Of a DNA stretch of 64,000 bases, positions 10,589 through 26,118 are shown piece after piece (position 1 is the first letter of the stretch; each line of letters starts with the position of its first letter). The stretch is from positions 1-64,000 of the forward strand of contig JAJYDK010000011.1 of NCBI GenBank assembly GCA_021777555.1, in the 5' to 3' direction. The notes beneath the pieces were generated by a model. It was not told where the DNA came from. It saw nothing but the letters and a program-made list of their open reading frames with translations, and did no database searches. Origin of the DNA: Pseudomonadota bacterium (GTDB lineage Bacteria > Pseudomonadota > Gammaproteobacteria > Steroidobacterales > Steroidobacteraceae). The position numbers were made by a program, and so were the translations under genes.

Positions 10589-12205
10589 TCAGTGTCCCCG
10601 AGGCCCATCCAGGCGCAGCAGAAACAAGCCGTGCTGCGGCACAGCGACCTGAATCCGCCCGCCCTTCAACCTCACGGCTTGCGGGGGCGCAAGCCGCCCT
10701 GCGGCCTTGAGTTTCTGGATCTGCACCAGCGTCGGCCATCTGGGACGCCCCATTGCATCGAAAGCCTCCAATACGTTGCTGTGTCGATCGTCGACTCTCC
10801 ACAGCTCGCCGCTCGCTGAGGGCGAAATGCCGCGAACGGTGAGCTTGAAGGTCCGCACCTGCCGGGTGGCGGGTGGTGGCGTATACCGCGGCCCCGTTCC
10901 GTCAGGCGGCGCGTAATTCCAGAGAGCGATTGCCACATCGCCGCTGGAGGTCCGGGTGATGAGAGCCGATCGCGCGGCAGGATCCAGCCTGATGGTGCCC
11001 AGTTTGTGCAGGATGGCAAAGGCGTTGAACGCCGCTTTCGGGATGTCGTCCTCGGCGATCAGGCCGAAGCCGCCGTAAAACGGCTTGCGGATGACGCCGC
11101 CCTCCTCGAAGACGTCCGAGAACGTCCAATAGCTCATCATGTGCACCAGGCCGTCGCACTGCGAGATGGTGGTTGCCAGCCATGGCCCCATGTAGGGCGT
11201 GTCGGTCACATCCGGCTCGTTGGAGTAACTCGCGTTGTACTCGGAAAAGATGAGCGGCAGATGAGGATACGGCGAATGCTCGATCTCCTCGTGCACCTTG
11301 TGCACCGCGCGGCAGACCATCGCCCGGCGCGGGATCTTCGCGTGGGTACCGAAGACGGTTTTCGCCGTATCGTTGCCATAGACATGGGTGCTGACGAAGT
11401 CGATCGGCGCCCTTACCTTGTGTACGTGGGCCAGGAACCGGCTCACCCAGGCCGCCTGCGCCGTCGCCGGGCCGCCGACCCTGAGGCGCGGATCGACTTC
11501 CTTCAGCGCGCGCGCGGTATGGTCATAGAGCTCAAAGTAGCTCTGCCGCCGCGGCGCGCCGCCCCAGAAGTCGAGGTTTGGCTCGTTCCAGACTTCGAAA
11601 TACCACCTTGAGACCTCGTCGATGCCGTAGCGTGAAATCACGTGCCTCGCCAGTGCGCGGATCATCCTGTCCCAGGCCGCGTAGCTGCGCGGCGGCGAGA
11701 CGATCGGGTGGTACCAGAATGACTGGCGCATGCGTGGGTTGGCGGCGAGCGCCTTCGGCATGAAGTCGAGCTCGACGAACGGGCGCACACCGTGAGCGAG
11801 CAAGGCGTCGTAGATCTGATCGATGTAGGAAAAGTTGTATGGCGAGTGCTTGGACGACGGCTTGTTGTAAAACAAGGCCGGATTGCTTTCCACCAATCCG
11901 ACGCCGCGATCCAGCACGCCGTGAAAGCGTACGTAGGCGATGTCCGTATCCGTCCGCATTATTCCGAGGTCCCGCTGATAATTGGCCCGCAACACGAGCG
12001 CCGCCCGGCCGGACCCGAACATGCGTTCCCAAAAATGGGGGAATGGCCGACCCGGCGCGCGCGCATTGATCACCAGATGCACCACCGTCCCCGGGTCAGT
12101 GGCCTGCCCGCTTGCGGCGTGCACCGCCCCGCTGGGCGCCAGGATCAAGATGAGCGCAAACAGGACGACGCGGTTCACTGGCAAGGCGTTGAAGAAGCGG
12201 CTCAT
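10589..12205 (-). CDS. Secreted glycoside hydrolase, GH39-like
   Basis: 538-residue clan-A (beta/alpha)8 hydrolase with a signal peptide (residues 9-31, cleavage near VHAASG). Acid/base Glu208 lies in EVWNEPN and the likely nucleophile Glu322 in IFSEYNAS, the layout of GH39 beta-xylosidases and related enzymes. The C-terminal 120 residues form a beta-sandwich. The start at 12203-12205 leaves a 9-base gap to an AGGGA ribosome site; the ATG at 12212-12214 abuts it. It follows the (alpha/alpha)6 hydrolase gene by 13 bp, the last gene of the receptor operon. A retaining exo-activity on a xylose-, arabinose- or glucose-type residue is likely; the exact sugar is unknown. Confidence 0.82.
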   Translation of the reverse strand: MSRFFNALPVNRVVLFALILILAPSGAVHAASGQATDPGTVVHLVINARAPGRPFPHFWERMFGSGRAALVLRANYQRDLGIMRTDTDIAYVRFHGVLDRGVGLVESNPALFYNKPSSKHSPYNFSYIDQIYDALLAHGVRPFVELDFMPKALAANPRMRQSFWYHPIVSPPRSYAAWDRMIRALARHVISRYGIDEVSRWYFEVWNEPNLDFWGGAPRRQSYFELYDHTARALKEVDPRLRVGGPATAQAAWVSRFLAHVHKVRAPIDFVSTHVYGNDTAKTVFGTHAKIPRRAMVCRAVHKVHEEIEHSPYPHLPLIFSEYNASYSNEPDVTDTPYMGPWLATTISQCDGLVHMMSYWTFSDVFEEGGVIRKPFYGGFGLIAEDDIPKAAFNAFAILHKLGTIRLDPAARSALITRTSSGDVAIALWNYAPPDGTGPRYTPPPATRQVRTFKLTVRGISPSASGELWRVDDRHSNVLEAFDAMGRPRWPTLVQIQKLKAAGRLAPPQAVRLKGGRIQVAVPQHGLFLLRLDGPRGH

Positions 12206-12218
12206 GATGGACATTCCC

Positions 12219-14237
12219 TCAGTGAGTACCACCAGATACGGAAGGAGCAGTCGGCCGTTGCGCGAGCCGCGGCCGGCAATACAGGTCGCACACCGTCGCT
12301 GCGAGATAGCCGGCCGCGGTCGCGAAGGCTCCGCCGCCGGGGATCGCTGCGTCCGTCTCGGGATCGACCTGCTCCGAGACGATGCCGCCGTCCCAGGGGC
12401 TCGCAAGCAGCATCTTCAGCGCCCTCACCCGGCCCGCCCGCAGCCGCAGGTGATCGGCAATCGACCAGCTGCTCGTATCCGGCAGCCGGTAGCTCCCGGG
12501 CAGGCCGTAGGGCTTGCCGGCATTGGAGTACCGAAAGGACTTTGAGTGCAGCCACCGGTACGTGCGGCGAAAGACCGGATCGTCCTGGCTCACGAACCCC
12601 AGCGCCGGCAGCTTCAGCAGCGATCCGGGCGGGACGTCGTCGAATTTGTATCCCTGCCCGTCCCAACCGAAGGCGAAGATCGGACCGCCGGCGCCGGGGG
12701 CGCCCGCAGCCACCAGGATGCGCATCACGGCGGCGTGCAGACTGCGCGCGCGCTCGTCCATGTCATGCGCCGTGGCAGGCGCTCCCAATGCACGGTACAA
12801 GGCGGCGCCATCGCGCAGTGCCCGCCAGACGAGCGCGTTATCGTAGGTCTCGTAACGCCAGCGGCGGTTCTCGTCCTGCGAATCCTGCTGGGTCCAGTAC
12901 AGGCCCGCGCGGCCTTGGTGCGCGGCAAGCTTCTCAAACAGCTCAGCGAGCGCAGCGCGATGTCTGTGCACATAGCCCGTATCGCCCGTGCGCCGCCAAT
13001 ACTCGGCCAGGGCGATGATCGGCGCGGCGTTTTCATCGAGCTCATACCCGGGCTCGAGGGTGACGCCGTCGATGAAGCGACTATGCGTGCCGGCGTCACG
13101 CAACTGGATGCCGAGCGCCACATCCAGCGCCCGGCGGGCGCGCCGGACATCGCTGTCCAACAGCGCCGGGAAACTCCACAGCATGGCGTCGCGGTCCCAG
13201 TAGGCCGCCGAAACGTAGTACCGCGGCGAGCGCGACGTCACGCCGACGAACTGTTCCGTGTCATATGTCCTCCCCCAGGCGAAGAACGAGGAGAACAGAA
13301 GATTGCGGTTCATGAACCGGTCCAGCGCCGGATCGCCCGTGGTACGCAGGCGCGGTGCCAGCCAGGAGCGCTCCTCGGCGAGCACCGTCCTCGCGCCACG
13401 GTCTTGCAGCTGCGCCGCAAGCACCCTTGAGGCGTATTCGGCGCTCGATTCATCGAGTCCGACCGAGACGATGAAATTCGCGACCGTGCGCTGGCCGGGC
13501 GCGAGCACACGCTGGCATCTGACCGTATACGTATCGCCGGCGCGCTGCTCGTCCGGGCAATCCGGGTGGCCGAGCGCCCAGGCGAGAACCGTCTCGTTCT
13601 CCACGAAGCTGAACACGCGGGTACGCGGGATCCAGGCCGGCGCGTCCGACTGCAGGCGTTGCCCGATGATCATCGAGGGCGAATAGGTCACGCGCGCCAG
13701 CCCGGACCAGTGCGCGGTGATTCCGAAGCGAATCTTGCGCGGAGCGGCCGCCTCGTTGACGATCACCATGCGGATCCAGGCGGCTCGCGCGTGAGGGGGT
13801 GTCGCGTAGGTGATCGTGACACGCGCCGGTCCGGTGCGTGCCGTGGCCACCGGGATCCAGTCATCGATCAGGCGCCATTTGGTGATCTCAAGACCCCTGC
13901 TTGAGGTTCCCGCAGCGACCCAGGGTGCCAGCACCGGAGTCAATTTCTGCTCCGGTCCCGTTTCCACGGCCGGCGAGCCCTGCACCTGCAGCAGCCCGCG
14001 GTCATGCATCGACAGAACGTTGAAGCTGACCAGGGCGCCGTCACTGGCGCGAATTTCCGGAAGCGCGATCCAGTCGTTGCCGGTCGCGATGACTGCATCG
14101 GCTCCCAACGCGAGCGGCGCGCTTGCGCACGAGCCGCATGCGGGCGCCAGCGCGATGAGAGTCAGGGCCGCGGCAATTGGGTGCACACGCGGTCCGGCCG
14201 TCCCACCTCGCCCCGCCATCCGGGCGATCCTTCTCAT
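12219..14237 (-). CDS. Secreted (alpha/alpha)6-barrel glycoside hydrolase, family unassigned
   Basis: 672-residue protein with an N-terminal beta-sandwich (about residues 50-280) followed by a helical barrel (about 300-650) of six-hairpin glycosidase type: YYVSAAYWDRDAMLWSFPAL, RFIDGVTLEPGYELDENAAP and RWRYETYDNALVWRAL contain the acidic residues expected at the mouth of the barrel. The signal sequence contains several Cys (LAPACGSCASAPLA) and may be a lipoprotein. The start at 14235-14237 is chosen because it overlaps the preceding gene's stop as ATGA. The layout recalls GH15, GH63 and GH125-like enzymes, but I cannot assign one. It sits between two other hydrolases of one operon. Confidence 0.68.
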   Translation of the reverse strand: MRRIARMAGRGGTAGPRVHPIAAALTLIALAPACGSCASAPLALGADAVIATGNDWIALPEIRASDGALVSFNVLSMHDRGLLQVQGSPAVETGPEQKLTPVLAPWVAAGTSSRGLEITKWRLIDDWIPVATARTGPARVTITYATPPHARAAWIRMVIVNEAAAPRKIRFGITAHWSGLARVTYSPSMIIGQRLQSDAPAWIPRTRVFSFVENETVLAWALGHPDCPDEQRAGDTYTVRCQRVLAPGQRTVANFIVSVGLDESSAEYASRVLAAQLQDRGARTVLAEERSWLAPRLRTTGDPALDRFMNRNLLFSSFFAWGRTYDTEQFVGVTSRSPRYYVSAAYWDRDAMLWSFPALLDSDVRRARRALDVALGIQLRDAGTHSRFIDGVTLEPGYELDENAAPIIALAEYWRRTGDTGYVHRHRAALAELFEKLAAHQGRAGLYWTQQDSQDENRRWRYETYDNALVWRALRDGAALYRALGAPATAHDMDERARSLHAAVMRILVAAGAPGAGGPIFAFGWDGQGYKFDDVPPGSLLKLPALGFVSQDDPVFRRTYRWLHSKSFRYSNAGKPYGLPGSYRLPDTSSWSIADHLRLRAGRVRALKMLLASPWDGGIVSEQVDPETDAAIPGGGAFATAAGYLAATVCDLYCRPRLAQRPTAPSVSGGTH

Positions 14238-15733
14238 CGGCGATGCCTGGCACGGGCGCGCGCCATTGCCGCGCCGAACCAACCGCCCGTAAATTCCGCC
14301 CGGCGCAATCCAGCACGGACATAGGGATTACGCCGCATGATCCGCCAGATCAGGCCACTGCGCTGATTCTCGATCATTGCGATGATGGGTCCCTGGTCAA
14401 TGCCGATGAAGTCGTTGTCGACCCAGCCGTGGTGTGGCACGACCCGGCCCTTGCGAGCCAGTCGCGCGTGAGTGAAGCTCGGGTTGAAGGAGTCGAGGAA
14501 GCCGTAGCGGGTGTATATGATGCCGCCGAATTGGCGCAAGAGTGTCCGGGTCGCCTCCGTCACATACCGCGGAGCGAATGGCAGGGAGCCGAGCACTGCG
14601 GTCGGGGCCAGCGTGCCGTCGTCGTCGTCCTGGTCGGTGATTCCGCGCGCGTCATAGCCGTGGAATTGGCGCATCCGGCCGTGATACCAGGCGCGAACAT
14701 TTCCCGGCCCATCGCATGCCGTGAGCCCCCAGATGTCGGGGCCATAGTCGGCCCAGCCGTGCGGGTTGCTGATCGCGTATTGGCGCTGTGCCAGGGTCGC
14801 TCTGCGGTCATTCTCGAAGTAGGTCTCTCTATGGGCTCGCATGAACGGATCGGCGAGACCCCGCATGTCCACCCAAACGGCCGTGTACTGAAAGACGAAC
14901 TGCGGACCGATGGCGAGCAGCGTCTGACCGGCGAGGTGCCGCCAGTCGTGCCTGGTGGTGGCCGTCCAGGCGCTCCAGGCATTGTCACGCAATGGGTGAG
15001 TGGGCGAGCCCAGACCGAGGATGTACAGAATCGATGCTTCATTGAATCCCGCCCAGCGCGCCTTGTAGAAGCCGTGTCCGGGCAGCCACGCCATGCTGAC
15101 GAGCGGATTCAGCCCCGGTGCGGCCCACCCCCAATGGACGCGCCGGTACAGCCGATCGGCCAGCTTTCGCACCTGACGTTCCACCGTCGTTGGACGGTTG
15201 AAGTAGCTCTCCGCGGTCAACACCCCCGCCATGAGCAGCGCGGTGTCGATGGTCGAGAGCTCGCTGCCGCGATGCCTCAGCCCCGTACGCATATCGAGAA
15301 AGTGGTAGAAGAATCCCCGATATCCGGCGAACCCCGCCGCCCCCGGTCCCTGCGGCCGGCTGAGCAGGAATGCGAGCGCCGTGCGCACACGAAGCGCCGC
15401 CGCGCGGCGGCTGACGTAATGACGAGCCGCCCCAATGACATCCGCGGTCAACGCGAAACCAATGGCCGCGATGCTGGCGGGGGCCGGTGAAGGCCAGCGA
15501 TCCGGGGTGAGCCCGGTGGCCGGGTCGGTGGTGTTCCAGAAGTACTCGAAAGTCCGGCGCTCGATATCCGCGAACATTCGCTGGGGATTGAGGGCGATTC
15601 GCCGCACGAGCTGCGGCGGTAGCGGCGAGATGGCCGTGGCCCTCGGAGCAGCGTGCGCGATCGCCGCAAAGCTCGCATAGACGGTCAGTATGGCGCGGGC
15701 AAGCCGCACCCTTCTCCGAGTCGTTGAGATCAT
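14234..15733 (-). CDS. Secreted glycoamylase-domain hydrolase, GH144-like
   Basis: 499 residues with a signal peptide (AILTVYASFAAIAHA) and a helical barrel. Features of the glycoamylase (PF10091) family are FEYFWNTTDPATGLTPDRWP, SIAAIGFALTADVIGA, FYHFLDMRTG, SELSTIDTALLMAGVLTAE, WAGFNEASILYILGLGSPTH and IDQGPIIAMIENQRSG. Members of this group characterised as GH144 are endo-beta-1,2-glucanases, while other members are uncharacterised, so the substrate is a suggestion. It overlaps the next hydrolase by ATGA and follows the halogenase-like gene by 19 bp. It probably cuts the polymer imported by the receptor of this operon. Confidence 0.78.
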   Translation of the reverse strand: MISTTRRRVRLARAILTVYASFAAIAHAAPRATAISPLPPQLVRRIALNPQRMFADIERRTFEYFWNTTDPATGLTPDRWPSPAPASIAAIGFALTADVIGAARHYVSRRAAALRVRTALAFLLSRPQGPGAAGFAGYRGFFYHFLDMRTGLRHRGSELSTIDTALLMAGVLTAESYFNRPTTVERQVRKLADRLYRRVHWGWAAPGLNPLVSMAWLPGHGFYKARWAGFNEASILYILGLGSPTHPLRDNAWSAWTATTRHDWRHLAGQTLLAIGPQFVFQYTAVWVDMRGLADPFMRAHRETYFENDRRATLAQRQYAISNPHGWADYGPDIWGLTACDGPGNVRAWYHGRMRQFHGYDARGITDQDDDDGTLAPTAVLGSLPFAPRYVTEATRTLLRQFGGIIYTRYGFLDSFNPSFTHARLARKGRVVPHHGWVDNDFIGIDQGPIIAMIENQRSGLIWRIMRRNPYVRAGLRRAEFTGGWFGAAMARARARHRR

Positions 15734-15752
15734 GATAGGTGCCGTGGCCGGT

Positions 15753-17267
15753 TCAGGGCGGCGGAGCCTTGCAGTGCCGGGCTATGAATGCCTCGTGCGC
15801 AGGCACGACCGCCACACAGCTGCCGATCACCTGCTCCACGTGCTCGATGAATTGCCGGAGCTCGGCGTCCGTCAGGCGATCGATCACGGGCGGGTAGCGG
15901 CGGGAGGCGATGTGCTGGCCAATCAGCACCTGCGCCCAGCTTACGGTGGTGAACAGCTCATCGCTCTTCGGCATGATGCGGGCGCTGTCACGAAAGAGCG
16001 CGATGTATTCGCGCAGCGACTCCGGGATCTCCATGGTGCGGCAGTAATTCCAGAACGGGGTATCGGCCCGCTCCGTCGCGTGATAGTGCAGGATGAGGAA
16101 ATCGCGCACCCGCTCGAACTCTCCGTCCATCTGCGAGTTATATCGATTTCGCAGCGCTTCGCTGCAATCGCGCTCGGGAAACAGCAGCGCCAGTTTCGCG
16201 ATCGACGTCTGGATCAGGTGAATGGCCGTCGATTCCAGAGGCTCGAGGAACCCGCCCGAGAGCCCGATGGCCACCACGTTGCCGATCCACGCGCGGCGGC
16301 GCTTGCCGCCGTGGAACGGGATGAGCTTAGGCTCGGCAAGCGGCCGCCCTTCGAGGTTGGCGAGCAGCATCGCGGCCGCCTCGTCCTCGCTCATATGGCG
16401 GCTGGAAAACACATGCCCGTTGCCCACGCGATGCTGCAAAGGAATGCGCCATTGCCATCCAGCGGGCCGCGCGGTCGCGCGTGTGTAGGGCACCGGCGGT
16501 GCGACGTTCTCGCACGGCACCGCCCAGGCCCGGTCGCACGGCAGCCAGTGCGACCAATCCTCGTATCCTGCGTGCAGGCACTGCTCGATGAGCAGACCGC
16601 GAAAGCCCGAGCAGTCGATGAACAGGTCCCCGGAGACGCTGCGCCCGTCCTGCAGCACCAGGGTCTCCACAAAACCGCTTTCCGGGTGCCGGCGGACCTC
16701 CACGACCCGCCCCTCGACCCGCCGTACACCGTGTGCCTCCGCGAACCGCCGCAGGTAGCGGGCGTACAGCGATGCGTCGAAGTGGTACGCGTATACGATG
16801 TCCTCGAGCGGAGTGTTCTTCGGCGCGTCCGAGGGCGTCGGCATGAACCGGCCCTGGCGGGCGGCCTGAACATTGAAGGAATACAGGCCGAGATCCTTGG
16901 CAGCGCCAATCTGCAGGGCCCGCGTCCAATATTGATGAAAGGGCTGCCCGTCGAGGTCCAGCCCGAGCGTGCCGAAACCGTGGATGTACGAATCCCCCGG
17001 CCGGGCCCAATCCCGGAATTCGATGCCAAGCTTGAAGGTCGCCTGCGTTGCGCGCACGAACTCCCGCTCGTCGATTCCGAGCAGCGCGTTGTGCCTGCGA
17101 AAGGGAGGGATGGTTGCCTCGCCGACGCCGATGATGCCGATCTCCTCGGACTCGATCACCTCGATTGTGAGTTCCGGGTAGAGCAGCCGCCGCAATGCCG
17201 TGGCCGTCATCCAACCGGCCGTTCCGCCACCGACGATCACCAACCGGCGGATGCTATTGTCATTCAT
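15753..17267 (-). CDS. FAD-dependent tryptophan halogenase-like protein
   Basis: 504 residues. The FAD-binding GGGTAGWM (13-20) is at the N-terminus, the catalytic Lys79 (TFKLGIEF) stands at exactly the PrnA position, the WxWxIP motif is at 271-276 (GWQWRIP), and the second FAD motif with the conserved Glu (GFLEPLESTAIH, Glu342/345) follows. All catalytic hallmarks are thus present. Start 17265-17267 gives the usual family length; a longer frame adds a low-complexity Arg/Gly stretch. Genes of this family are frequently found beside TonB-dependent receptors in glycan loci of Gammaproteobacteria and Caulobacter, where their role is unknown. It lies between the receptor and the hydrolases. No separate flavin reductase gene is nearby. 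Confidence 0.88.
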   Translation of the reverse strand: MNDNSIRRLVIVGGGTAGWMTATALRRLLYPELTIEVIESEEIGIIGVGEATIPPFRRHNALLGIDEREFVRATQATFKLGIEFRDWARPGDSYIHGFGTLGLDLDGQPFHQYWTRALQIGAAKDLGLYSFNVQAARQGRFMPTPSDAPKNTPLEDIVYAYHFDASLYARYLRRFAEAHGVRRVEGRVVEVRRHPESGFVETLVLQDGRSVSGDLFIDCSGFRGLLIEQCLHAGYEDWSHWLPCDRAWAVPCENVAPPVPYTRATARPAGWQWRIPLQHRVGNGHVFSSRHMSEDEAAAMLLANLEGRPLAEPKLIPFHGGKRRRAWIGNVVAIGLSGGFLEPLESTAIHLIQTSIAKLALLFPERDCSEALRNRYNSQMDGEFERVRDFLILHYHATERADTPFWNYCRTMEIPESLREYIALFRDSARIMPKSDELFTTVSWAQVLIGQHIASRRYPPVIDRLTDAELRQFIEHVEQVIGSCVAVVPAHEAFIARHCKAPPP

Positions 17268-17415
17268 CGCTTGCGCCTCCCCCGCGCCGCTGAAAACCCG
17301 GGCGCGCCATGGTGCACCGGACACATGCCCGCAGAAGCCGCTCTCCGGGACCGCACATCCGGCGCCTCGAGCCCCGCCGGCCGCCGGGACAACGCCCCGG
17401 CGGCCGCGCGCAGCC

Positions 17416-20400
17416 CTACCAATTGAGCCCCGCATCGAGCTTGATGGTCAGCGGCACCCCGTAGATGGGTCCGTTGGTGACATACTGCGGCGGAGGTGAG
17501 CCGGCTAGCGATGGGCTGAAGCTCGCGGACGCGTACTGCGGCGTGTTGAACACATCGAGCACGTCGAGCCGGACGTATCCTCTCATCCCGTACCAGCGCA
17601 GACCAAAGTGCTTGGTCGCCTGCAGATCGAGATTGTGCTCGCCCCATGCATCGCGTGGGAACCCCGTCATCGGGAAATCCCAGTAGCCGCCGCACTGCTG
17701 GATCGTGGTCGGGCACGGGGCCGCGGCGCCGAACCCGATCGGCGTCGACAGAGTGAGCTTGGCGCCGTAGGTCATGCTCCATGGCCCGTCGATCGAGCCG
17801 GTGATCACCACGCGGTGCTTCGGGATCACGCTGCTCGGCACCATGGGATACATCGACACCTTGGGCAGATCGAACAGGTAATTGTTGTTGCCGAAGTACG
17901 AGTAGTAATCGTTCTGGTGGGCGTCCGAATAGGTATAGGCGATGGTGGCGCTCCAGCCGGACTCACGGGTATAGGGCTTGTCGAGGTATACCAGCACCTC
18001 CTTGTTGATATCCTTTCCGCCGTTGTTCCACAGCACCAGGTTGCCGGTCGTGCCCGGCACCCCGCCCCAGGCGGGACATACTCCCGCGGCGCCCCAGCTG
18101 CACGGCACGAAGTAGGCGCCATTTGCGGCGCGGTTGCCGAGCTGTCCGACGATGCGGTTGTAGCTCTTGACCTCCGACAGCGTGAGGCTCGCGTCCCATG
18201 CGCCGATGCGCGTGCGAAAGCCCAGGCTGAACTGGTCCGAGTACGGGTTCCTGATATGATTGTTGACCATATCGATCTCGCCGTACGGGGTGGTGTTGAG
18301 CGTCTGCAGATTGGCGAGGCTCATGTAGGCGGGGTTCCAGGCGACGCAGCTCGCACTGGCGTCCGCCGCCGTAAGGCACGGAGGGTTGGCAAAGCTGTAG
18401 CCGCCGCCGTAGAAGCCCACCGTCGGCTCGGCGAGCGCCGATTTGGTGAGTTCCAGGGACATCAGGTCGAAGATGTTGCGATCGTAGGCGCGCGCGTAGC
18501 CGCCGAAGATGACGTAGCGCTGATTGCCCTCTATGTCGTAGGAGAAGCCGAGTCGCGGCTGGATCTCGTTGCTCTGCGGCGAGCGATTGTTCCCGGTGCT
18601 GATGTAGTTGGCGATGTTGGTGCCACCGAGCGCGAGCGCCTGAGCGTAGGTCTCGCTCGATCCAGGGGAGTACGGTCCATAGATGTCCTTGACGACGGCC
18701 TGGGGCGTGACGAAGTGCTCCCAGGCGGGCACGGTCTCGTAGTCGTAGCGCACACCGAGATCGAGCTCGAGATGCCGATTGACGTTCCAGTCGTCCTGCA
18801 GGTAGATCCCGAACAGGTTGTCGTTGGAGTTCGCCAGCACCTGCTTGCCGCCCTGGTAGAGCGCGGTGTAGCTCGCCTGATAGGGCGTGGCGTGGGTGCC
18901 CGCGGAGTCCACGGCGTAGTAGAACTGCGAGCCCTGGGCTGCGTCCTGGTAGCCGAGCTTGGTGCCGCTGTAGCTCACCCCCAGCTTGAGGGTGTGCGTC
19001 CCGGCGAAGCTCAGGTTGGCGAGCGTGAAGTCATCGGACAGCGTCCACACCTGCTGCTGGTTCTTGAACTGGGCGTAGGCGTTCTCACCGTTCACGTTGA
19101 TGATCGAAGTATTGCCGCCGGAGTAGAACCACTGGTAGGTGAGCTGCGGGTTGGTCGAGCTCGGCCGCGGAGTCTGGCCCGAGGACTCGTAACTGACGCG
19201 CGCCTCGTTGGTCCAGCTCTCGCCCGCATGCAACCAGTACAGGCCCACGCGGCTGAATCGGTTCTCCACCGAGTTGGCGGCCGAAGCCGCGGTCTGGCCG
19301 CTCGCGCCGGAGATCTGGCTCTCGAAGCGGTAGAGCTCGGAGAGCTCCAGGCGGTCGTTGACACCTGGCTCGTAGTCGAGCTTGGCGAACAGCAGGTCCT
19401 CGCTGAATGGGTTGGTGGTCGGACCGAACTGTGACCAGACGCTCCCGGGCAGCAGCGGCTGGAGGGCCGCCACGGTTGGCGCATTATTTCCGGGAAACAC
19501 GGTATTGGGCAGTGCCAGATCCTTGTGCTCGTAGGCGACGAAGAAGTGGGCGGCATCCTTCACGATGGGCCCGCCAAATGATGCGCCGTACTCCAGGCTC
19601 TGGCCGCCCAGCGCCTTGGGGTCGCCCGGTGTGGTTGCATTGGCCTCCGCTGGCGTATCCGCCCGCAGATTCTGGTTGGTGAAGCTCACGAAGGAGTTGC
19701 CTTCGAAATTGTTTGTGCCGGACTTGGTCTTCGCGGCGATCGCTGCGCTCGCCACCTGGGCGTATTGGGCACTGTAGTTGGATGTGATCACCCGGTACTC
19801 GGCGATCGCCGACTGCGGGAAGGGATTTCCGGGGTCGCCCACGTTGGGATTCTTGTCCGGCCCCGACTGGCCGGCGATGCCGCCCTGCACGAAGTCCGTC
19901 ATGCTCATGCCGTCGATGTAGACGTTGGCGTTGTACGCTTCCTGCGCTCCGCCGCGAAATGCGGTGTTGCCGCTGCCGTCGACCGTGAAAGTGACGCCCG
20001 GGATGGTATCGGCAAATTCCAGGAAGTTGCGGGTGATCTGCGGAATGGTCGCGATGGTCCGTTGTGAGACCAGGCCGCCGACCGCCGGCGTGCGCACCTC
20101 GACCAGGCGGTGGCCCGTCACCGTCACTTCCTGCAAGGTCGCCGTGCGCAGCTTGCTGGGTGTGAAATCGAAGGTCACTGTGGATGCGACACTCAGGATC
20201 AGCGTCTGCTCCTGAGTGCCGGCCCGCACCCGGTATCGGCCGGGCGGCAGGCCGATCAGAGTGTAAGTACCGGCCTTGGACGCCGTTGCCTCTCGACGGG
20301 CACCGGTGGCGATATTGGTGGCGACGATCTTCGTTCCCGGAACCGCATGTCCTTCGAGTGTCGCGTTGGCCATCTGTGCCCGGGCCGTGTGCGGAATGAG

Positions 20401-20478
20401 TGCGGCGGTGCTGGCCGCCAGCGTGGATGCCACAAAACTGGCGACGAGATTCTTTCGTGACCTGCAGTGCCTCGACAT
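17416..20478 (-). CDS. TonB-dependent receptor with N-terminal carboxypeptidase-like domain (Oar type)
   Basis: 1020 residues from the Met at 20476-20478. After a signal peptide (cleavage near HTARAQ) comes a carboxypeptidase-regulatory-like beta domain (about 38-120), a TonB-box-like LQEVTVTG, a plug domain (about 130-260) and a 22-strand barrel ending in an aromatic-rich C-terminus (LTIKLDAGLNW). Large receptors of this type import oligosaccharides across the outer membrane. The longer open frame upstream crosses the promoter and operators and is not used. It is the first gene of the operon containing the halogenase-like gene and three hydrolases, and two LacI-type operators sit in front. 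Confidence 0.9.
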   Translation of the reverse strand: MSRHCRSRKNLVASFVASTLAASTAALIPHTARAQMANATLEGHAVPGTKIVATNIATGARREATASKAGTYTLIGLPPGRYRVRAGTQEQTLILSVASTVTFDFTPSKLRTATLQEVTVTGHRLVEVRTPAVGGLVSQRTIATIPQITRNFLEFADTIPGVTFTVDGSGNTAFRGGAQEAYNANVYIDGMSMTDFVQGGIAGQSGPDKNPNVGDPGNPFPQSAIAEYRVITSNYSAQYAQVASAAIAAKTKSGTNNFEGNSFVSFTNQNLRADTPAEANATTPGDPKALGGQSLEYGASFGGPIVKDAAHFFVAYEHKDLALPNTVFPGNNAPTVAALQPLLPGSVWSQFGPTTNPFSEDLLFAKLDYEPGVNDRLELSELYRFESQISGASGQTAASAANSVENRFSRVGLYWLHAGESWTNEARVSYESSGQTPRPSSTNPQLTYQWFYSGGNTSIINVNGENAYAQFKNQQQVWTLSDDFTLANLSFAGTHTLKLGVSYSGTKLGYQDAAQGSQFYYAVDSAGTHATPYQASYTALYQGGKQVLANSNDNLFGIYLQDDWNVNRHLELDLGVRYDYETVPAWEHFVTPQAVVKDIYGPYSPGSSETYAQALALGGTNIANYISTGNNRSPQSNEIQPRLGFSYDIEGNQRYVIFGGYARAYDRNIFDLMSLELTKSALAEPTVGFYGGGYSFANPPCLTAADASASCVAWNPAYMSLANLQTLNTTPYGEIDMVNNHIRNPYSDQFSLGFRTRIGAWDASLTLSEVKSYNRIVGQLGNRAANGAYFVPCSWGAAGVCPAWGGVPGTTGNLVLWNNGGKDINKEVLVYLDKPYTRESGWSATIAYTYSDAHQNDYYSYFGNNNYLFDLPKVSMYPMVPSSVIPKHRVVITGSIDGPWSMTYGAKLTLSTPIGFGAAAPCPTTIQQCGGYWDFPMTGFPRDAWGEHNLDLQATKHFGLRWYGMRGYVRLDVLDVFNTPQYASASFSPSLAGSPPPQYVTNGPIYGVPLTIKLDAGLNW

Positions 20479-20716
20479 CGTGTTTCCCCCCTCAGTTTGA
20501 CGAATCGGCCATCGTGAGCTCACGCCTTGGACCCCAGGGCGCAAACTCCTCTCGAGACGCCCGACCGGCGCTGTGGCGCAGAGCGGACGCGGTTGCGGAT
20601 CTCTTGGTGTATTCCCCGGGGCGGCACTGCGCCCGGTCAGCGATTGCGCGGGCGCGACACCCCTGGGACTACGATCCTGAATGCGGATTTCTGCGTCGGA
20701 ACTCCGCACCAACCAA

Positions 20717-20730
20717 TGTAAACGCTTACT
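20717..20730. promoter_or_regulatory. LacI-type operator O2 (TGTAAACGCTTACT)
   Basis: Near copy of the perfect palindrome found in front of the lacI gene (12 of 14 bases). It begins 20 bp, about two helical turns, from O1, so two repressor dimers could bind the same face. It lies in the 5' leader of the receptor transcript. Confidence 0.72.
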
Positions 20731-20736
20731 TCGGAC

Positions 20737-20750
20737 TGTAAACGTTTTCG
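20737..20750. promoter_or_regulatory. LacI-type operator O1 (TGTAAACGTTTTCG)
   Basis: Second near copy of the palindrome TGTAAACGTTTACA (11 of 14 bases). It begins directly after the -10 box of the receptor promoter on the minus strand and so covers the predicted transcription start, the classical position for repression. Confidence 0.72.
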
Positions 20751-20751
20751 C

Positions 20752-20780
20752 TTTATATTCTCCGGGTGCTCCGTTGTCAA
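20752..20780 (-). promoter_or_regulatory. Sigma-70 promoter of the TonB receptor operon
   Basis: On the minus strand TTGACA (20775-20780) and TATAAA (20752-20757) are separated by exactly 17 bp, close to ideal for the housekeeping sigma factor. The start point falls near 20745, inside operator O1. The rest of the gap 20479-20966 holds the long leader and no gene. Confidence 0.78.
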
Positions 20781-20966
20781 TATTTCGTCAATGCCGGGGG
20801 GGCGCAGAAGGGCATGGAAACGCAAGGAACGGTCCAACCGCCCTGCACATCGCCGTCCGGCGGGATCTCCGTTGCATATTTGCAACGGCATTCCGTTGAC
20901 GCGCCCTGTTCCAGCGCGGCGCCCGGACCTCGATCACGCCGGCACCCCGGTCACGATCGCCCCACC

Positions 20967-22010
20967 TCAGGGTTTCAACTCCACGCGTGCCCCGCTCGTT
21001 AGATCAAACGCATGCAAGTGTCCCCGTGCGACCCAGAGCCGTATCTGCTCCCCGACTTCCAGCGTCCTCTCGGGACGCAAGCGCGCGAGCACCCGACCCA
21101 GGCGATGCGTCAGCTCCAGATCCCATTCGCTGCCCTGGGATTCGATCCGCTCGATGCGCCCGGTGAGTTGCAGATCGTCGCCACCGCCGGGCCGTGCCGA
21201 GAAGCACTCGGGGCGCACGCCATATTCCAGCGCGCCCTGCCCGGCCGGAACACGCGCGACATCGTCAAAGGAGTCGGCCGTGAGAAAGTTCATCGGCGGC
21301 CAGCCGACAAATCCCGCCACGAAGCGATTGGCGGGCCGCTGGAACACATGAGCCGGTGTGTCGATCTGCTGCACACGGCCGCCGGCGAGCACCACCATGC
21401 GCTGACCGAGCGACAGCGCCTCGGATTGATCGTGGGTGACGTAAACCATGGTGGCCCCAAGGGAACGGTGCAACGCAGCAAGCTCGCGGCGAAGCTCGGC
21501 GCGCAGTGGCGCATCGAGGCTCGAGAGCGGCTCATCGAGCAGGAACACCGACGGATTGCGCAGCATGGCTCGACCGAGGGCCGTCCGCTGCCTTTGGCCG
21601 CCTGAAAGCTCGCGTGGAAAGCGCTTGAGCATCGCCTCGATGCCCAGCTGCGCGGCGACCAGTCTGACGCGCTGGTCGAGGCGTGCGCGGGGCGTGCCCC
21701 GCACGCGCAGTCCGAACGCCAGGTTTTCGTAGACGGTCATGTGCGGGTACAGCGCGTGGTTCTGGAACACCATCGCGACGTCGCGCTGCTGCGGCGGTAG
21801 CTCGTTGACGGTGCGCTCACCTATTCGGATCACTCCCCGGGTGACCGATTCGAGGCCCGCGACGAGGCGCAGCAAAGTGGATTTACCGCACCCCGAAGGT
21901 CCGACCACCACCAGCAACTCACCATCGCGCGCCGAGCAGGACACATCGCGCAGCACCGCCTGGCCGCCGCGCAGGATCTTCTCGACATGCTCGATCTCCA
22001 GGGCCGCCAT
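20967..22010 (-). CDS. Sugar ABC transporter ATP-binding protein (MalK/UgpC family)
   Basis: 347-residue CUT1 ATPase: Walker A VGPSGCGKSTLLRL, Q-loop, signature LSGGQRQRTALGRAML, Walker B VFLLDEPLSSLDA, His-loop VYVTHDQSEAL, then a C-terminal TOBE/OB regulatory domain (about residues 240-345). It powers uptake of oligosaccharides. It is the last gene of the lacI-ABC operon and starts 1 bp after the second permease. MalK-type subunits can energise several sugar permeases, so it may serve others as well. Confidence 0.92.
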   Translation of the reverse strand: MAALEIEHVEKILRGGQAVLRDVSCSARDGELLVVVGPSGCGKSTLLRLVAGLESVTRGVIRIGERTVNELPPQQRDVAMVFQNHALYPHMTVYENLAFGLRVRGTPRARLDQRVRLVAAQLGIEAMLKRFPRELSGGQRQRTALGRAMLRNPSVFLLDEPLSSLDAPLRAELRRELAALHRSLGATMVYVTHDQSEALSLGQRMVVLAGGRVQQIDTPAHVFQRPANRFVAGFVGWPPMNFLTADSFDDVARVPAGQGALEYGVRPECFSARPGGGDDLQLTGRIERIESQGSEWDLELTHRLGRVLARLRPERTLEVGEQIRLWVARGHLHAFDLTSGARVELKP

Positions 22011-22011
22011 G

Positions 22012-22839
22012 TCAGTCCGTGAGGCTTCCGGCGATCACCGACCGCAGGTAATAGCGCTGCGATGCGAGAAACACCACCACCATCGGCAGCATGGTCATGG
22101 TGGCGCCCGCCGCCATCAGCCCGATATCCTGGTAGTGCTCGCGGTCGATCGCCGCCAGGGCAACCGGCAGGGTCTGCATGCCCTCCTGCTGCATCGCGAT
22201 CATCGGCCACATGAAGTCATTCCAGCTCACCACGAAGACCAGCACGCCCACCGCAGCGAGCATCGGGGCCATCAGCGGCACGACGATCGAGCGGTAGATG
22301 CGCCACTCGCTCGCGCCGTCGATGCGCGCGGCATCGAGGATTTCCACGGGTATGCCTCGCATGTACGCCTGCACCAGCACGATGCCCACGGGATTCGCGG
22401 CGGCCGGCAGCACCAACGCCGCATAGTGATTGACGAGGTGCACCGTGCGGAACATCTCGAACAACGGCAGCACCAGCGCCTGATTGGGGATCAGAACGCC
22501 GAGCATCACGAGCCAGGAGACCACCCGCCTGCCTCGAAACTCTACGCGCGCCAGCGCATACCCGGCCGAGCCGGCCACCAGCACGGACAGCGCCATGGTG
22601 GCGGTGGCGACCACGATGGAGTTGAAGAAATACCGGCCGAGGTGCTGCCGGCTGATGATGTTGATGACGTTGACGAGTGTCGGATGGTGCGGCCAGAGCG
22701 GCGGCGTGCCGGCGGCGGCCTCCGGCGCGCGCATGAGCGCGATCGAGGTCACCCAAAGCAGGGGAAAGAGCGTAACGCCAGCGAGCCCAGTGAGTCCGAG
22801 ATAGGTGCCGGCCCGAAGCGTGCGGGTACGCAGGCTCAT
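22012..22839 (-). CDS. Sugar ABC transporter permease (MalG-like)
   Basis: 275 residues with six predicted helices and the EAA loop that docks to the ATPase (residues about 190-205, EILDAARIDGASEWRIYRSI). The start is set at 22837-22839, 1 bp after the stop of the preceding permease and after a GGGGGAG ribosome site; an earlier Met would overlap that gene by 47 bp. It is the MalG-type half of the inner-membrane channel. Confidence 0.9.
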   Translation of the reverse strand: MSLRTRTLRAGTYLGLTGLAGVTLFPLLWVTSIALMRAPEAAAGTPPLWPHHPTLVNVINIISRQHLGRYFFNSIVVATATMALSVLVAGSAGYALARVEFRGRRVVSWLVMLGVLIPNQALVLPLFEMFRTVHLVNHYAALVLPAAANPVGIVLVQAYMRGIPVEILDAARIDGASEWRIYRSIVVPLMAPMLAAVGVLVFVVSWNDFMWPMIAMQQEGMQTLPVALAAIDREHYQDIGLMAAGATMTMLPMVVVFLASQRYYLRSVIAGSLTD

Positions 22840-22840
22840 A

Positions 22841-23722
22841 TCACTCCCCCCGCCAGCCGGCGCGGGTGTGCCTCTGCACCCATGCAAACAGCCACATCAC
22901 TGCCGTCAGCGCCACTGCGATGGCGCTCGCCGCCCCCCATCGCCACCAGCGAAAGCCGCGCTCGTACATCAGCAGCAGCAGACTCGTGGTGCTGCCCAAG
23001 GGCCCACCCTGCGTAAGCACATACGGTTCGGCGAAAAGCTGCCAGTAGCCGCTGACATCCAGCAGCGCGAGGAGGCCCAGAGTCGGGGCCAGCATCGGGA
23101 CCGTTATCCGCAGCAGCCTCTGGTGCACGCCCGCGCCCTCGATGCGGGCGGCGTCGTACAGCTCGTCGGGTATCTCCTTGCGCGCCGCGGAGACGATGAT
23201 CATCCCGTAGCCGAACCCCTTCCATACGACTACGATCGTGATCGCGAGGATCGCCAGGTGCGGGCTCCCGAGCCAGTCGGGAGCGCCCAGGCCAAGCAGC
23301 GCGAGCAGGTGATTGACCAGGCCGAAGCGCGTGTTGAGCAGATAGCGCCAGCTGATCGCGATGGCAACCGTCGAGCACACCACGGGCACGAACAGAGCCG
23401 TGCGGAACATCCCGCGCCAACGTTCGGCGATCGATTCAATCATCAGCGCCGAGACCAGCGACAGAAACAGCGTCGCGGGCACCCCCACCACCACGACCAC
23501 TAGCGTCGTCTCCAGCGCCTGCCACGCCTCCCGGTCCCTGAGCAGATGCCAGTAATTGGCGGCACCGATCACGTGCAGGTTGGCCGAATCGGCAAGTGAA
23601 TACACACCGAAATCGGTCAGGCTCAGCCCGAGGACGCCGATCAGGGGAATGAAGACGAATACCGCGAGCAGCACGAGCGCGGGCAGGACGAACAGCGCAC
23701 CGGTGGAACGCTTGCGCTTCAT
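22841..23722 (-). CDS. Sugar ABC transporter permease (MalF-like)
   Basis: 293 residues with six helices and the docking EAA loop ELYDAARIEGAGVHQRLLRI. The start at 23720-23722 overlaps the stop of the solute-binding protein gene as ATGA; the open frame further upstream lies inside that gene. It pairs with the MalG-like protein to form the inner-membrane pore. Confidence 0.9.
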   Translation of the reverse strand: MKRKRSTGALFVLPALVLLAVFVFIPLIGVLGLSLTDFGVYSLADSANLHVIGAANYWHLLRDREAWQALETTLVVVVVGVPATLFLSLVSALMIESIAERWRGMFRTALFVPVVCSTVAIAISWRYLLNTRFGLVNHLLALLGLGAPDWLGSPHLAILAITIVVVWKGFGYGMIIVSAARKEIPDELYDAARIEGAGVHQRLLRITVPMLAPTLGLLALLDVSGYWQLFAEPYVLTQGGPLGSTTSLLLLMYERGFRWWRWGAASAIAVALTAVMWLFAWVQRHTRAGWRGE

Positions 23723-25017
23723 CGCGCCTTCGCCCCAAGGGAGTCTCCCCTCGGGGGCATCGCTGCCGGGAACCTCGAGCGCGCCAGAAACTCGCGGCGC
23801 TTCGCGAGCCAGCCATCGACGGTGCGGTCGAACCGCGCCGTGGCACCCCGCACCGTAGCATCGCCCGCGGCCACGCGCGCAGCCATGCGGCGCATTCCAT
23901 CCATGATCTCGTCCCACTCCGGAATCGCCTCAAAGGGGCGCACCCGCTCGAGCTGAGAGCGGAATGCCTGCAGCTTGATGTCGGTCGAAAGCGGCGGCAA
24001 CCGCCAGACGCCGCGCCGCGCCGGCAAGTCGCCCGTGAGCTCGTACAGCCGGACCTGTTGCTCGTCGGCCAGCATGTAGCGGATGAATTCGCGCGCGAGC
24101 CGCACGCGGTGCGAGGCCCGGAAGACCACGAAATCGGAGCCACCGATGATCGACACTCCCGGACCATCGGGACCAGGCATCGGTGCGGTCATCCACAGGT
24201 CCTCGTCCCGAGGCGGCAGAAACCGGCGGAACTCACCGATATTCCATGGACCGGACACGTAGAACACGAAGTCTCCCCGCGCCATCTCCCACCACAGGTT
24301 GACGAGCTGCCGGTCATCGACGCGAGGCGCCAGATGCCCCTGGTACAAGCTCTTGTAAAACGACAGTGCGCGCTGAAACGAGGTGCTCGTGAAGTTACTG
24401 TAGCGATCGCCGTCGCGCAACATCGGAGCGGGCTCTTGCAACGCGAGGACCTCCAGGAACTCATATTCGTTGGTGGGAGCGAGGAGCGCGTACTGCCCGG
24501 GACCGAGGATCCGCCTGACAGCGCGCATCTGCTTCAGCCATCCGTTCCAAGTCCGGGCCGGCCGGTCGAATCCAGCCCGCCGCAGGATGTCGGGGCGATA
24601 AAACAGCAGCCGCGTATCGACATACCAGGGCACGCCGTAGGAAACCCCGTCGAAGCGAGTGACCTGCAGCGCCCCGGGGAAGAAGTCGTCCGCGATATGC
24701 CGCTCGGGCCTGAGTGCGTGCAGGGTGACGAGCATCGCAATGTCCGTGTCTCCTACCTGGGCGACATCCGGCGGGTCTCCGGCCGCGACCGCCGACAGCA
24801 GGCGTGCCTGCGCGGAGCTCCAGGCGAGCTCCTGCACGCACACCGAGCTCCCCGGATGACTCGCTTCGAATCCGGGCACCATGCGCTCGAGCGCGTCCGC
24901 CTCGGAACCAATCGCCCACACGGTCAGTCCGCACGGGGCGTGCGTGCAGCCGGCGCAAGCAAGCATCGCCGCGCCGAGCGCCGCGAGTGCCCTTGCCCGG
25001 TCGAAGGCGCTCCTCAT
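23719..25017 (-). CDS. Extracellular sugar-binding lipoprotein of ABC transporter (CUT1)
   Basis: 432 residues. The start at 25015-25017 overlaps the lacI stop as ATGA and gives a lipoprotein signal (AAMLACAGC). The mature protein has the two-lobed fold of family-1 solute-binding proteins: LTVWAIGSEADALERMVPGF at the N-terminus, YGVPWYVDTRLLFYRPDILR in the hinge region and FVFYVSGPWNIGEFRRF, with many aromatic residues likely to stack on sugar rings. It captures oligosaccharide in the periplasm after cleavage by the hydrolases of the neighbouring operon and hands it to the permeases. Confidence 0.9.
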   Translation of the reverse strand: MRSAFDRARALAALGAAMLACAGCTHAPCGLTVWAIGSEADALERMVPGFEASHPGSSVCVQELAWSSAQARLLSAVAAGDPPDVAQVGDTDIAMLVTLHALRPERHIADDFFPGALQVTRFDGVSYGVPWYVDTRLLFYRPDILRRAGFDRPARTWNGWLKQMRAVRRILGPGQYALLAPTNEYEFLEVLALQEPAPMLRDGDRYSNFTSTSFQRALSFYKSLYQGHLAPRVDDRQLVNLWWEMARGDFVFYVSGPWNIGEFRRFLPPRDEDLWMTAPMPGPDGPGVSIIGGSDFVVFRASHRVRLAREFIRYMLADEQQVRLYELTGDLPARRGVWRLPPLSTDIKLQAFRSQLERVRPFEAIPEWDEIMDGMRRMAARVAAGDATVRGATARFDRTVDGWLAKRREFLARSRFPAAMPPRGDSLGAKAR

Positions 25018-26054
25018 CGGCCCGCTTGTTCGCCCGGCCGCGCGGTGGCCCGCGGATCGGTCGACCCGCGAACGATCAGGGTCGTCGGTAACGGCCGCTC
25101 GCGCGGCCCGGAGGGAGGCGGCTCGCCCGGCTTGCGGTTGACGGCTTTCACCAGCCATTCGAACGCCTCGACGCCCTGTTGCGCGATCGGCGGGCGCACC
25201 GAGGTCAACGGTGGTCGCGTGAATCGCACGATCGGAACGTCGTCGAACCCGGCGACGGCAATTTCCTCCGGTACTCGGATACGGGCCTCCGTCAGAGCCT
25301 CGAGGCATCCCACCGCCATGTTGTCGTTGGCGGCGAAAATGGCGCGGGGACGCCTCGAGCGGCTCGCTATGAGCTGTCCGGCCTGGTAGCCGGCCCGCTC
25401 CGAATAATCGCCCGGAATGTCACGATGTAGCGGCAGGCCGGCCTCTTCGATCGCCGCACGGAACCCGCGCGCCCGCTCGCTGGCATCGAAATTTCCCAGC
25501 GGGCCCGCGATGTGCACGATGTTGCGGTATCCCATCGACACGAAATGCCGCACCACTTGGCGCGCACCGTCGGCGTTGTCCACCGTCAGCGCAGGGCAGC
25601 CGTTGACCGGGCCGGGCGCATTCAGCAGAATCGTCGGAACGCTCATCAATATGGGGGCCAGACGCGCCGCGGCGTCGATAAACGGGGCCATCAGGATGAC
25701 GCCATCGACCTGCCCGTGAAGCAGCCCGAGGACCCGCCTCACTTCGGCGAGGTTCCCATGCAAGCTCGCCACCAGCAGACTCTGCCCGTGCGCGTGCGCG
25801 CACTGGTCGAGCTCGCGGATCAGTTCGGAAAAGAACTCACCGTGCATGTCGGGCAGTACCACCGCGATCGTGCGCGAGCGTCCTGTGATCAGCGCGCGGG
25901 CCGCGGCGTGCGGCACGTAGTTCAGCTGCTGCGCCGCACGTAAAACCGCCTCCTTGGATTCCCTCTTCACGACCGAGGAGCCGTTCATGACCCTGGACAC
26001 AGTCGCGATGGAGACTCCCGCAAGCGCTGCGACATCGCGTATGCTGGTAGACAA
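25014..26054 (-). CDS. LacI-family transcriptional repressor
   Basis: 346 residues: an N-terminal helix-turn-helix and hinge (residues 4-58, IRDVAALAGVSIATVSRVMNG; hinge helix near YVPHAAARAL), then a periplasmic-binding-protein-like sugar sensor domain (60-330). The recognition helix VSIATVSRVMNG is of the class that binds TGTAAACGTTTACA-like sites, and a perfect copy lies 15 bp upstream of its own start. It is the first gene of the operon that encodes the sugar ABC transporter and is expected to repress that operon and the receptor/hydrolase operon until an oligosaccharide binds. Confidence 0.93.
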   Translation of the reverse strand: MSTSIRDVAALAGVSIATVSRVMNGSSVVKRESKEAVLRAAQQLNYVPHAAARALITGRSRTIAVVLPDMHGEFFSELIRELDQCAHAHGQSLLVASLHGNLAEVRRVLGLLHGQVDGVILMAPFIDAAARLAPILMSVPTILLNAPGPVNGCPALTVDNADGARQVVRHFVSMGYRNIVHIAGPLGNFDASERARGFRAAIEEAGLPLHRDIPGDYSERAGYQAGQLIASRSRRPRAIFAANDNMAVGCLEALTEARIRVPEEIAVAGFDDVPIVRFTRPPLTSVRPPIAQQGVEAFEWLVKAVNRKPGEPPPSGPRERPLPTTLIVRGSTDPRATARPGEQAGR

Positions 26055-26068
26055 GGATCAGCCCCATG

Positions 26069-26082
26069 TGTAAACGTTTACA
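26069..26082. promoter_or_regulatory. Perfect LacI-type operator (TGTAAACGTTTACA)
   Basis: A perfect 14-bp palindrome located 8 bp after the predicted -10 box of the lacI promoter, hence over the transcription start. It implies autoregulation and defines the motif that recurs at 20717 and 20737. Confidence 0.88.
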
Positions 26083-26090
26083 GATCGGGT

Positions 26091-26118
26091 ATCCTAACGA
26101 GACCGGGGCTTAAGTCAA
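26091..26118 (-). promoter_or_regulatory. Predicted lacI-ABC operon promoter
   Basis: On the minus strand TTGACT (26113-26118) and TAGGAT (26091-26096) are spaced by 16 bp, directly upstream of the operator. The -35 is strong, the -10 moderate. Confidence 0.6.

Follow-up and report, generated by a model that had tools for sequence, protein, structure and literature searches.

A candidate LacI-regulated β-1,2-glucan uptake locus carrying a receptor-linked flavin-dependent halogenase gene in a Steroidobacteraceae genome

Here, we describe a ten-gene locus within a 64,000-nucleotide stretch of DNA from a Steroidobacteraceae bacterium (assembly GCA_021777555.1; 4.02 Mb in 117 contigs); the whole stretch, hereafter called the window, sits in contig C49. 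The genes, all on the minus strand and running from position 26054 down to 10589, encode a LacI-family regulator, an ATP-binding cassette (ABC) importer, a TonB-type outer-membrane receptor, a flavin-dependent halogenase homologue, and three proteins related to glycoside hydrolase (GH) families. The locus probably serves the LacI-repressed uptake of β-1,2-glucan, or of a heteroglycan based on β-1,2-glucan, and resembles the loci for carbohydrate utilization with TonB-dependent receptors (CUT loci) of Xanthomonas, with the halogenase as an optional accessory inherited with the receptor. In the proposed mechanism, a secreted GH144 enzyme would cut the glucan backbone and the GH39 and GH125-like enzymes would trim side residues, upon which the receptor would move oligosaccharides through the outer membrane and the ABC importer would carry them through the inner membrane. 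The imported sugar would then free three operators from LacI. The halogenase would be a cytoplasmic flavoenzyme of the BrvH/Xcc4156 group that looks catalytically competent.

Gene content and predicted operators

A first-pass annotation, made from the sequence alone, had described two co-oriented units with coupled stops and starts. Every gene that it named was found in its place with a Pfam match (Table 1). ATGA stop/start overlaps join lacI to the gene for the solute-binding protein (SBP), the SBP gene to permease 1, and the GH144 gene to the GH125-like gene, and gaps of one base separate permease 1 from permease 2 and permease 2 from the ATPase gene. Gene starts, on which these junctions depend, were picked by eye, as were signal peptides and the lipoprotein call. 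The locus thus brings together a TonB receptor, an inner-membrane transporter, a degradative enzyme, and a regulator, the combination by which CUT loci are recognized.

A perfect palindrome, TGTAAACGTTTACA, directly precedes lacI, and two further sites, each with two mismatches to it, precede the receptor gene. With up to two mismatches allowed, these three places are the only ones in the whole 4.02-Mb genome, and the reversed control pattern gave no match genome-wide at the same tolerance. A scan of the window at up to three mismatches returned four matches where 0.14 were expected; the additional one, at 9904, is not part of the locus. Because the operators sit before both lacI and the receptor gene and nowhere else in the genome, the two units probably form one regulon. 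The halogenase gene, which starts 148 nt behind the receptor gene and carries no operator of its own, would be a member by position. Among related loci, one or more sites with no more than two mismatches were found in 30 of 41 stretches, which correspond to 28 of 39 distinct loci (raw counts; L190 repeats L009 and L195 repeats L015). Many of these sites stand no more than 300 bp ahead of lacI, the receptor gene, the GH144 gene, or the ABC ATPase gene, and the 11 stretches without a site include five of another locus type (L024, L027, L029, L196, and L197). The LacI operators that the first-pass annotation saw as joining both units are real, and its view of one co-regulated glycan-uptake locus is borne out by gene content and by the three operators. 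With its three exactly located operators, the locus is a clear candidate for β-1,2-glucan uptake.

The system is of an ordinary type in a well-defined new version. According to excerpts of PMC1790865, the CUT loci of Xanthomonas, such as the sux locus, likewise combine a TonB receptor, an inner-membrane transporter, a degradative enzyme, and a LacI/GalR repressor. The sux locus differs in its enzymes and in having a major-facilitator transporter where the present locus has an ABC importer, and the halogenase is an addition here; that paper's main text nowhere uses the word halogenase.

Table 1. Genes and predicted operators of the locus (window coordinates)
Feature	Position	Strand	Evidence
Predicted LacI operator, TGTAAACGTTTACA, perfect palindrome	26069..26082	.	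Directly before lacI
LacI-family regulator	25014..26054	-	PF00356 + PF13377, E 4.9e-37; TTG start at 26054
SBP of ABC importer, lipoprotein, 432 aa	23719..25017	-	PF13416 E 5.3e-27; lipoprotein by eye
ABC permease 1, UgpA/MalF-like	22841..23722	-	PF00528 E 4.9e-16; NCBIfam score under cut-off
ABC permease 2, UgpE/MalG-like	22012..22839	-	PF00528 E 3.8e-18; NCBIfam score under cut-off
ABC ATPase, UgpC/MalK-like, with TOBE_2	20967..22010	-	Pfam + NCBIfam matches
Predicted LacI operator, 2 mismatches to TGTAAACGTTTACA	20737..20750	.	Before receptor
Predicted LacI operator, 2 mismatches to TGTAAACGTTTACA	20717..20730	.	Before receptor
TonB-type outer-membrane receptor, 1020 aa, CarboxypepD_reg + OMP_b-brl_4	17416..20478	-	PF25183 E 3.1e-42; signal peptide by eye
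Flavin-dependent halogenase homologue, BrvH/Xcc4156 type, 504 aa	15753..17267	-	Trp_halogenase PF04820 E 1.6e-191; PDB 9luq/6y1w/6frl best
GH144 endo-β-1,2-glucanase homologue	14234..15733	-	PF10091 E 7.9e-76; 8xul E 5.4e-149; secreted by eye
GH125-like protein	12219..14237	-	PF06824 E 7.9e-15; GH125 structures E 3.6e-8 to 6e-5
GH39 enzyme, β-xylosidase-like	10589..12214	-	PF01229 E 8.5e-97; 1px8 E 4.1e-87; secreted by eye

Hydrolases and the likely glycan

The first-pass annotation had named the three secreted enzymes as GH144-like, GH39-like, and an (α/α)6 protein without a family; the first two names stood and could be sharpened. The PF10091 protein is homologous to GH144 enzymes, with 51% identity (227 of 445 aligned residues) to XcSGL (XCC2207), which excerpts of PMC12102758 describe as a tested GH144 endo-β-1,2-glucanase (PDB 8XUL). 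Its domain and three kept clan residues place it in GH144 (SGL clan): E232 (the general acid), F279, and Y360 correspond to E239, F286, and Y367 of XcSGL, the roles of which are given in the same paper. Unlike XcSGL, the GH144 protein described here shares its locus with halogenase, GH125-like, and GH39 genes. The identity to XcSGL and the kept clan residues make β-1,2-glucan the most likely backbone.

The GH39 protein clearly belongs to PF01229, and its WNEPN and EYN motifs align with 1px8; in GH39 enzymes, these two motifs hold the acid/base residue and the second glutamate. For the (α/α)6 protein, the absence of a family assignment stands, as its likeness to GH125 covers part of its length only. 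Residues 458–637 match profile positions 204–387 of the 414 in PF06824, a full-length match to this profile was not found, and the best structural matches (E 3.6e-8) likewise cover part of the chain. Structure prediction from a four-sequence input gave a low-confidence model (mean predicted local distance difference test score of 46) with a β region at the N-terminal end and a helical region at the C-terminal end. Among 296 genomes of the order, relatives of this protein at E 1e-40 occur in eight and GH144 homologues at E 1e-60 in 34. The halogenase gene adjoins the GH144 gene in 8 of 30 GH144 loci with 1.5-kb flanks, the window included.

Several observations weigh against a β-1,2-glucan locus of this make-up. 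The closest GH144 relatives, eleven proteins of the same genus (L205–L215; 69–76% identical), have neither a halogenase gene nor likeness to any other gene of the locus in their 1.5-kb flanks, save for a 50-bit match in L208. GH144 suggests a backbone alone and does not speak for the specificities of the GH39 and GH125-like proteins, and we know of no single natural polymer with such links. In addition, receptors of this type may in some cases serve a glycan other than β-1,2-glucan, because same-genus loci keep the receptor and halogenase genes next to GH39 genes, with GH144 either missing or out of its usual place. One could therefore imagine a heteroglycan with minor β-1,2-glucosyl links, on which the activities of the GH39 enzyme (e.g., xylosidase) and the GH125-like enzyme (e.g., mannosidase) are dominant. 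The same-genus loci L191–L193, which pair the receptor with GH39 or GH125-like genes and lack GH144 in the 20 kb read, are in keeping with this idea, but GH144 recurs with an SBP and permeases by this receptor type across several genera, and we consider a heteroglycan of that kind unlikely.

Related loci

The gene order lacI–receptor–halogenase–GH144–SBP–permeases recurs in loci of Rhodanobacter, Dokdonella, Luteibacter, and Pseudoxanthomonas (Lysobacterales). L010 contains lacI, receptor, halogenase, GH144, SBP, two permeases, ATPase, GH125-like, and GH39 genes, and the same-genus locus L189 has the same enzymes plus a second GH39, with lacI not seen within the stretch read. The gene-neighborhood survey that the first-pass annotation had called for thus found co-occurrence in other genomes. 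These two loci also show that its “undescribed” enzyme combination is rare but not unique.

Other loci show that the parts can come apart. The receptor and halogenase genes of L190 and of L191/L192 are accompanied by different enzymes. In L199, receptor, GH144, SBP, and permease genes occur without a halogenase gene, and its genome (G115) has a halogenase elsewhere. The window's genome has a sister locus (L193, contig C84) that encodes a receptor with 86% identity; all that it retains of the halogenase, at about 8.1–8.5 kb, is a short stretch from the C-terminal end (profile positions 401–456), and it also holds GH39, GH125-like, and GH39 genes, the receptor and hydrolase matches being long. 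In Xanthomonas campestris pv. campestris, XCC2208 is a receptor without a canonical plug (excerpts of PMC1790865), and its locus number adjoins that of XCC2207, which is XcSGL. By these locus numbers, the same receptor–GH144 arrangement, without a halogenase gene in between, is suggested for this species.

Family and active site of the halogenase

The nearest solved structures to the halogenase are 9LUQ, Xcc4156 (6Y1W), and BrvH (6FRL), with E-values of 1e-149 to 1e-158, and all three share its catalytic residues. The relation to PrnA, a tryptophan 7-halogenase, is weaker (E 2e-86), yet PrnA K79, H101, F103, W272, W274, and E346 have equivalents in K81, H98, F100, W273, W275, and E347 (numbering counts from two codons before the chosen ATG). 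In an alignment of the window copy with 98 relatives, these six positions are 99 to 100% conserved, compared with 68% for the median column. The GxGxxG motif for flavin adenine dinucleotide (FAD) and the WxWxIP motif are present together with the Lys79 and Glu346 equivalents, as expected of a PF04820 halogenase. Lys79 and Glu346 have catalytic roles in flavin-dependent halogenases, and H101 and F103 of PrnA contact the indole. The enzyme therefore looks active, and the intact-looking halogenase type with Lys79, WxWxIP, and FAD motifs read by the first-pass annotation agrees with the structure matches and the alignment.

No signal peptide was seen by eye in the halogenase, the Rossmann motif of which begins at residue 13 of the chosen start. 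Unlike PrnA, it has no natural-product pathway genes around it: none were found among the locus genes or the 20 annotated neighbor clusters, most singleton neighbors being unannotated. As to free tryptophan, the nearest relatives, Xcc4156 and BrvH, are not tryptophan enzymes, and the C-terminal cap, near which the residues that bind the amino and carboxyl groups of Trp are expected, lies outside the PrnA alignment. The top NCBIfam match is QhpG, at 40.5 bits against a cut-off of 240; QhpG modifies a protein tryptophan. According to excerpts of PMC7336383 and PMC5945002, BrvH and Xcc4156 act on indoles and not on free tryptophan, their native substrates are unidentified, and a peptide has been proposed as a possible substrate. 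The activity of BrvH on indole is low, and its own authors doubt that indole is the natural substrate (excerpts of PMC5945002). The present work adds a survey of the genomic setting of such genes.

Neighbors of the halogenase gene

The survey used the halogenase as query and covered the best 80 of at least 572 confirmed candidates; its counts are descriptive, as the loci were found through the halogenase itself, are mutually related, and come from related taxa that are not independent. A receptor gene lies within 600 bp on the 5′ side, on the same strand, in 62 of the 78 loci with a 5′ flank (two of the 80 have none), which accords with the recurrence beside TonB receptors claimed by the first-pass annotation. 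The rest comprise three loci with a convergent receptor gene, 11 with a receptor gene elsewhere in the locus, and two in which none was detected. When all halogenase open reading frames (ORFs) in the best 80 loci are counted, 64 of 99 are receptor-paired. The paired receptors are of two unlike types (37 and 25 loci), assigned with hidden Markov models built from clusters. In the 4.02-Mb genome to which the window belongs, 38 receptors match PF00593 (the window receptor is not one of them), and a rough estimate puts chance receptor adjacency on the order of one in a hundred.

Within 9 kb of the halogenase, the enzyme families differ from locus to locus, with GH13 in 27 of the 80 loci, GH144 in 16, GH1 in 12, GH31 in 11, GH3 in 8, and GH39 and GH92 in 5 each. 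For these figures, neighbor genes were called by codon-position GC scoring, by which some may be wrong, and the family of each cluster was taken from one representative. The PrnA-equivalent active-site positions show no variation with the glycan enzymes nearby, in a comparison that excludes the C-terminal cap.

A less biased, receptor-seeded search found the window receptor in 28 of 120 genomes of the family and returned 30 loci, of which two were without flank. In 18 of the 28 loci with flank, the halogenase gene adjoins the receptor gene (in one of them truncated, in one on the opposite strand), and 10 loci have none. Four genomes whose receptor loci lack the halogenase gene (G023, G041, G082, and G104) gave no halogenase match at E 1e-60. 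On a receptor tree of 53 sequences, the paired state needs four changes, compared with a mean of 9.3 after shuffling, and none of 500 shuffles was as low; the set, which leans paired, has 41 paired rows (three with the halogenase nearby in a non-standard place), 10 unpaired rows, and two that were not counted. Together with the receptor–GH144 loci that do without a halogenase, this pattern is what one would expect of an accessory that is passed on along with the receptor but can be absent.

Three arrangements deserve mention. Two Massilia loci (L034 and L035) have the tandem order receptor–halogenase–receptor–halogenase–receptor, in which two successive receptors each have their own halogenase. 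In L073 (Sphingomonas), five halogenase-matching ORFs, two of them weak, lie by one receptor gene at 0–11.5 kb. Genes for DUF6445 and Cupin_8 proteins stand near the halogenase in seven and five of the best 80 loci, respectively (clusters 17 and 24; e.g., L067:4261-4989 and L013:983-2053). Cupin_8 proteins are often hydroxylases, and a group of modifying enzymes around the receptors is conceivable.

Possible substrates of the halogenase

The first-pass annotation had proposed that the system processes or senses an aromatic-substituted glycan. The halogenase does sit in a glycan locus, and L023 and L025 carry, between the halogenase and GH144 genes, an α/β-hydrolase gene (cluster 29) whose cluster representative, a member from L019, weakly matches tannase/feruloyl esterase and so hints at an ester in loci of this kind. 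However, the halogenase appears cytoplasmic, some loci have the receptor and hydrolases but no halogenase or a truncated one, and its PrnA-equivalent active-site residues stay constant from one set of glycan enzymes to another. An aromatic glycan substrate is also disfavored because the halogenase tends to stay by the receptor while the enzymes nearby range from GH13 and GH31 to GH92 and GH144. Among the readings considered, such a role ranks last in likelihood, and we regard it as highly improbable. We favor instead a substrate that is shared by many such loci, for example an indole or another aromatic group on a protein or a small molecule.

One candidate for this shared substrate is the receptor itself. 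The halogenase could tune its partner receptor by brominating or otherwise oxidizing one of the receptor's aromatic residues while the protein is still in the cytoplasm and awaits export; another co-expressed envelope protein could be the target instead. This would fit the pairing with two unlike receptor types irrespective of the glycan enzymes, the tandem Massilia loci, the conserved active site, the QhpG match (albeit far below its cut-off), and the peptide substrate suggested for enzymes that do not halogenate free tryptophan (excerpts of PMC7336383 and PMC5945002). Receptors also occur in loci without a halogenase, and modification of a single Trp would require one that is common to paired receptors and absent from unpaired ones. 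Among window-type receptors (38 paired and 10 unpaired; five of the 53 rows were set aside as unknown or otherwise placed), no Trp cleanly separates the two sets: the best, W493, is present in 38/38 paired and 6/10 unpaired receptors, and the other invariant Trp residues occur in both alike. Some non-Trp columns lean toward the paired set, namely Y725 (37/38 versus 3/10), Y1077 (33/38 versus 1/10), and H495 (37/38 versus 4/10), but these leanings are inseparable from ancestry, and the unpaired set includes distant receptors.

The second receptor type was compared in 37 paired and 18 unpaired sequences, the latter from 40 control stretches, among which 19 gave a receptor match and 18 of these satisfied the length cut. 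Two Trp columns reach 78% in paired and 0 to 6% in unpaired receptors; many non-Trp columns also reach 76 to 78%, which resembles the signature of one clade, and no Trp is common to all 37 paired receptors. A C-terminal Trp was considered as a target and rejected, the last residue of 64 paired receptors being F in 33, W in 15, M in 6, L in 5, Q in 3, E in 1, and Y in 1. As neither receptor type shows a clean paired-only Trp and a C-terminal Trp is not general, receptor modification is less likely than it first seems, and we hold it to be doubtful. Since no single conserved Trp was found, the target would have to differ by receptor type, be a Tyr or His, or sit on a third protein. A broader, speculative version is that a large orphan group of flavin-dependent halogenases has TonB-dependent receptors as its dedicated partners. 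Each enzyme would then chemically modify an aromatic residue of the receptor paired with it, or of a peptide exported together with that receptor, ahead of arrival at the outer membrane, whatever the nutrient.

Alternatively, the halogenase may act on indole or a related free aromatic compound during foraging, giving an antimicrobial or a signal that is co-induced with uptake. BrvH and the Xanthomonas enzymes use free indole and its derivatives (excerpts of PMC7336383 and PMC5945002), the equivalents of PrnA H101 and F103 are kept, and expression of the halogenase would be tied to the LacI regulon by its position. On the other hand, the low activity and doubted natural role of BrvH on indole, together with the lack of biosynthetic genes in the annotated surroundings, speak against a small-molecule route, which would also leave the adjacency to the receptor gene unexplained. 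We consider this route possible, if tentative.

With the halogenase read as a receptor-inherited accessory of a β-1,2-glucan uptake locus, the survey narrows the substrate search, as the commonest constant neighbor in the loci surveyed is a TonB-dependent receptor and not one sugar enzyme. Several flavin-dependent halogenases of this group are still without a known natural substrate, and attention in the search for their job shifts from the sugar to the receptor or some shared partner. Natural loci with the halogenase (L189 and the window) and without it (L193 and L199) make this question directly testable. Among the literature matches listed, judged by titles and the starts of abstracts, no description of receptor–halogenase pairing in glycan loci was found, and the subscription literature may hold one. 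One of three papers with both “tryptophan halogenase” and “TonB-dependent” discusses the halogenase, in the excerpts available, for phages and Colwellia, and the passages of PMC8269204 that were searched do not mention TonB, receptor, transporter, or polysaccharide.

Other features of the window

Just downstream of the locus, positions 9137–10174 (plus strand) resemble, by eye, an insertion-element transposase gene. The minus-strand gene at 30245–31768 encodes multihaem cytochrome c motifs (PF14522 and related). Positions 44846–46465 (plus strand) encode a chaperonin of the Cpn60/TCP-1 family (539 aa; PF00118, E 1.2e-70).

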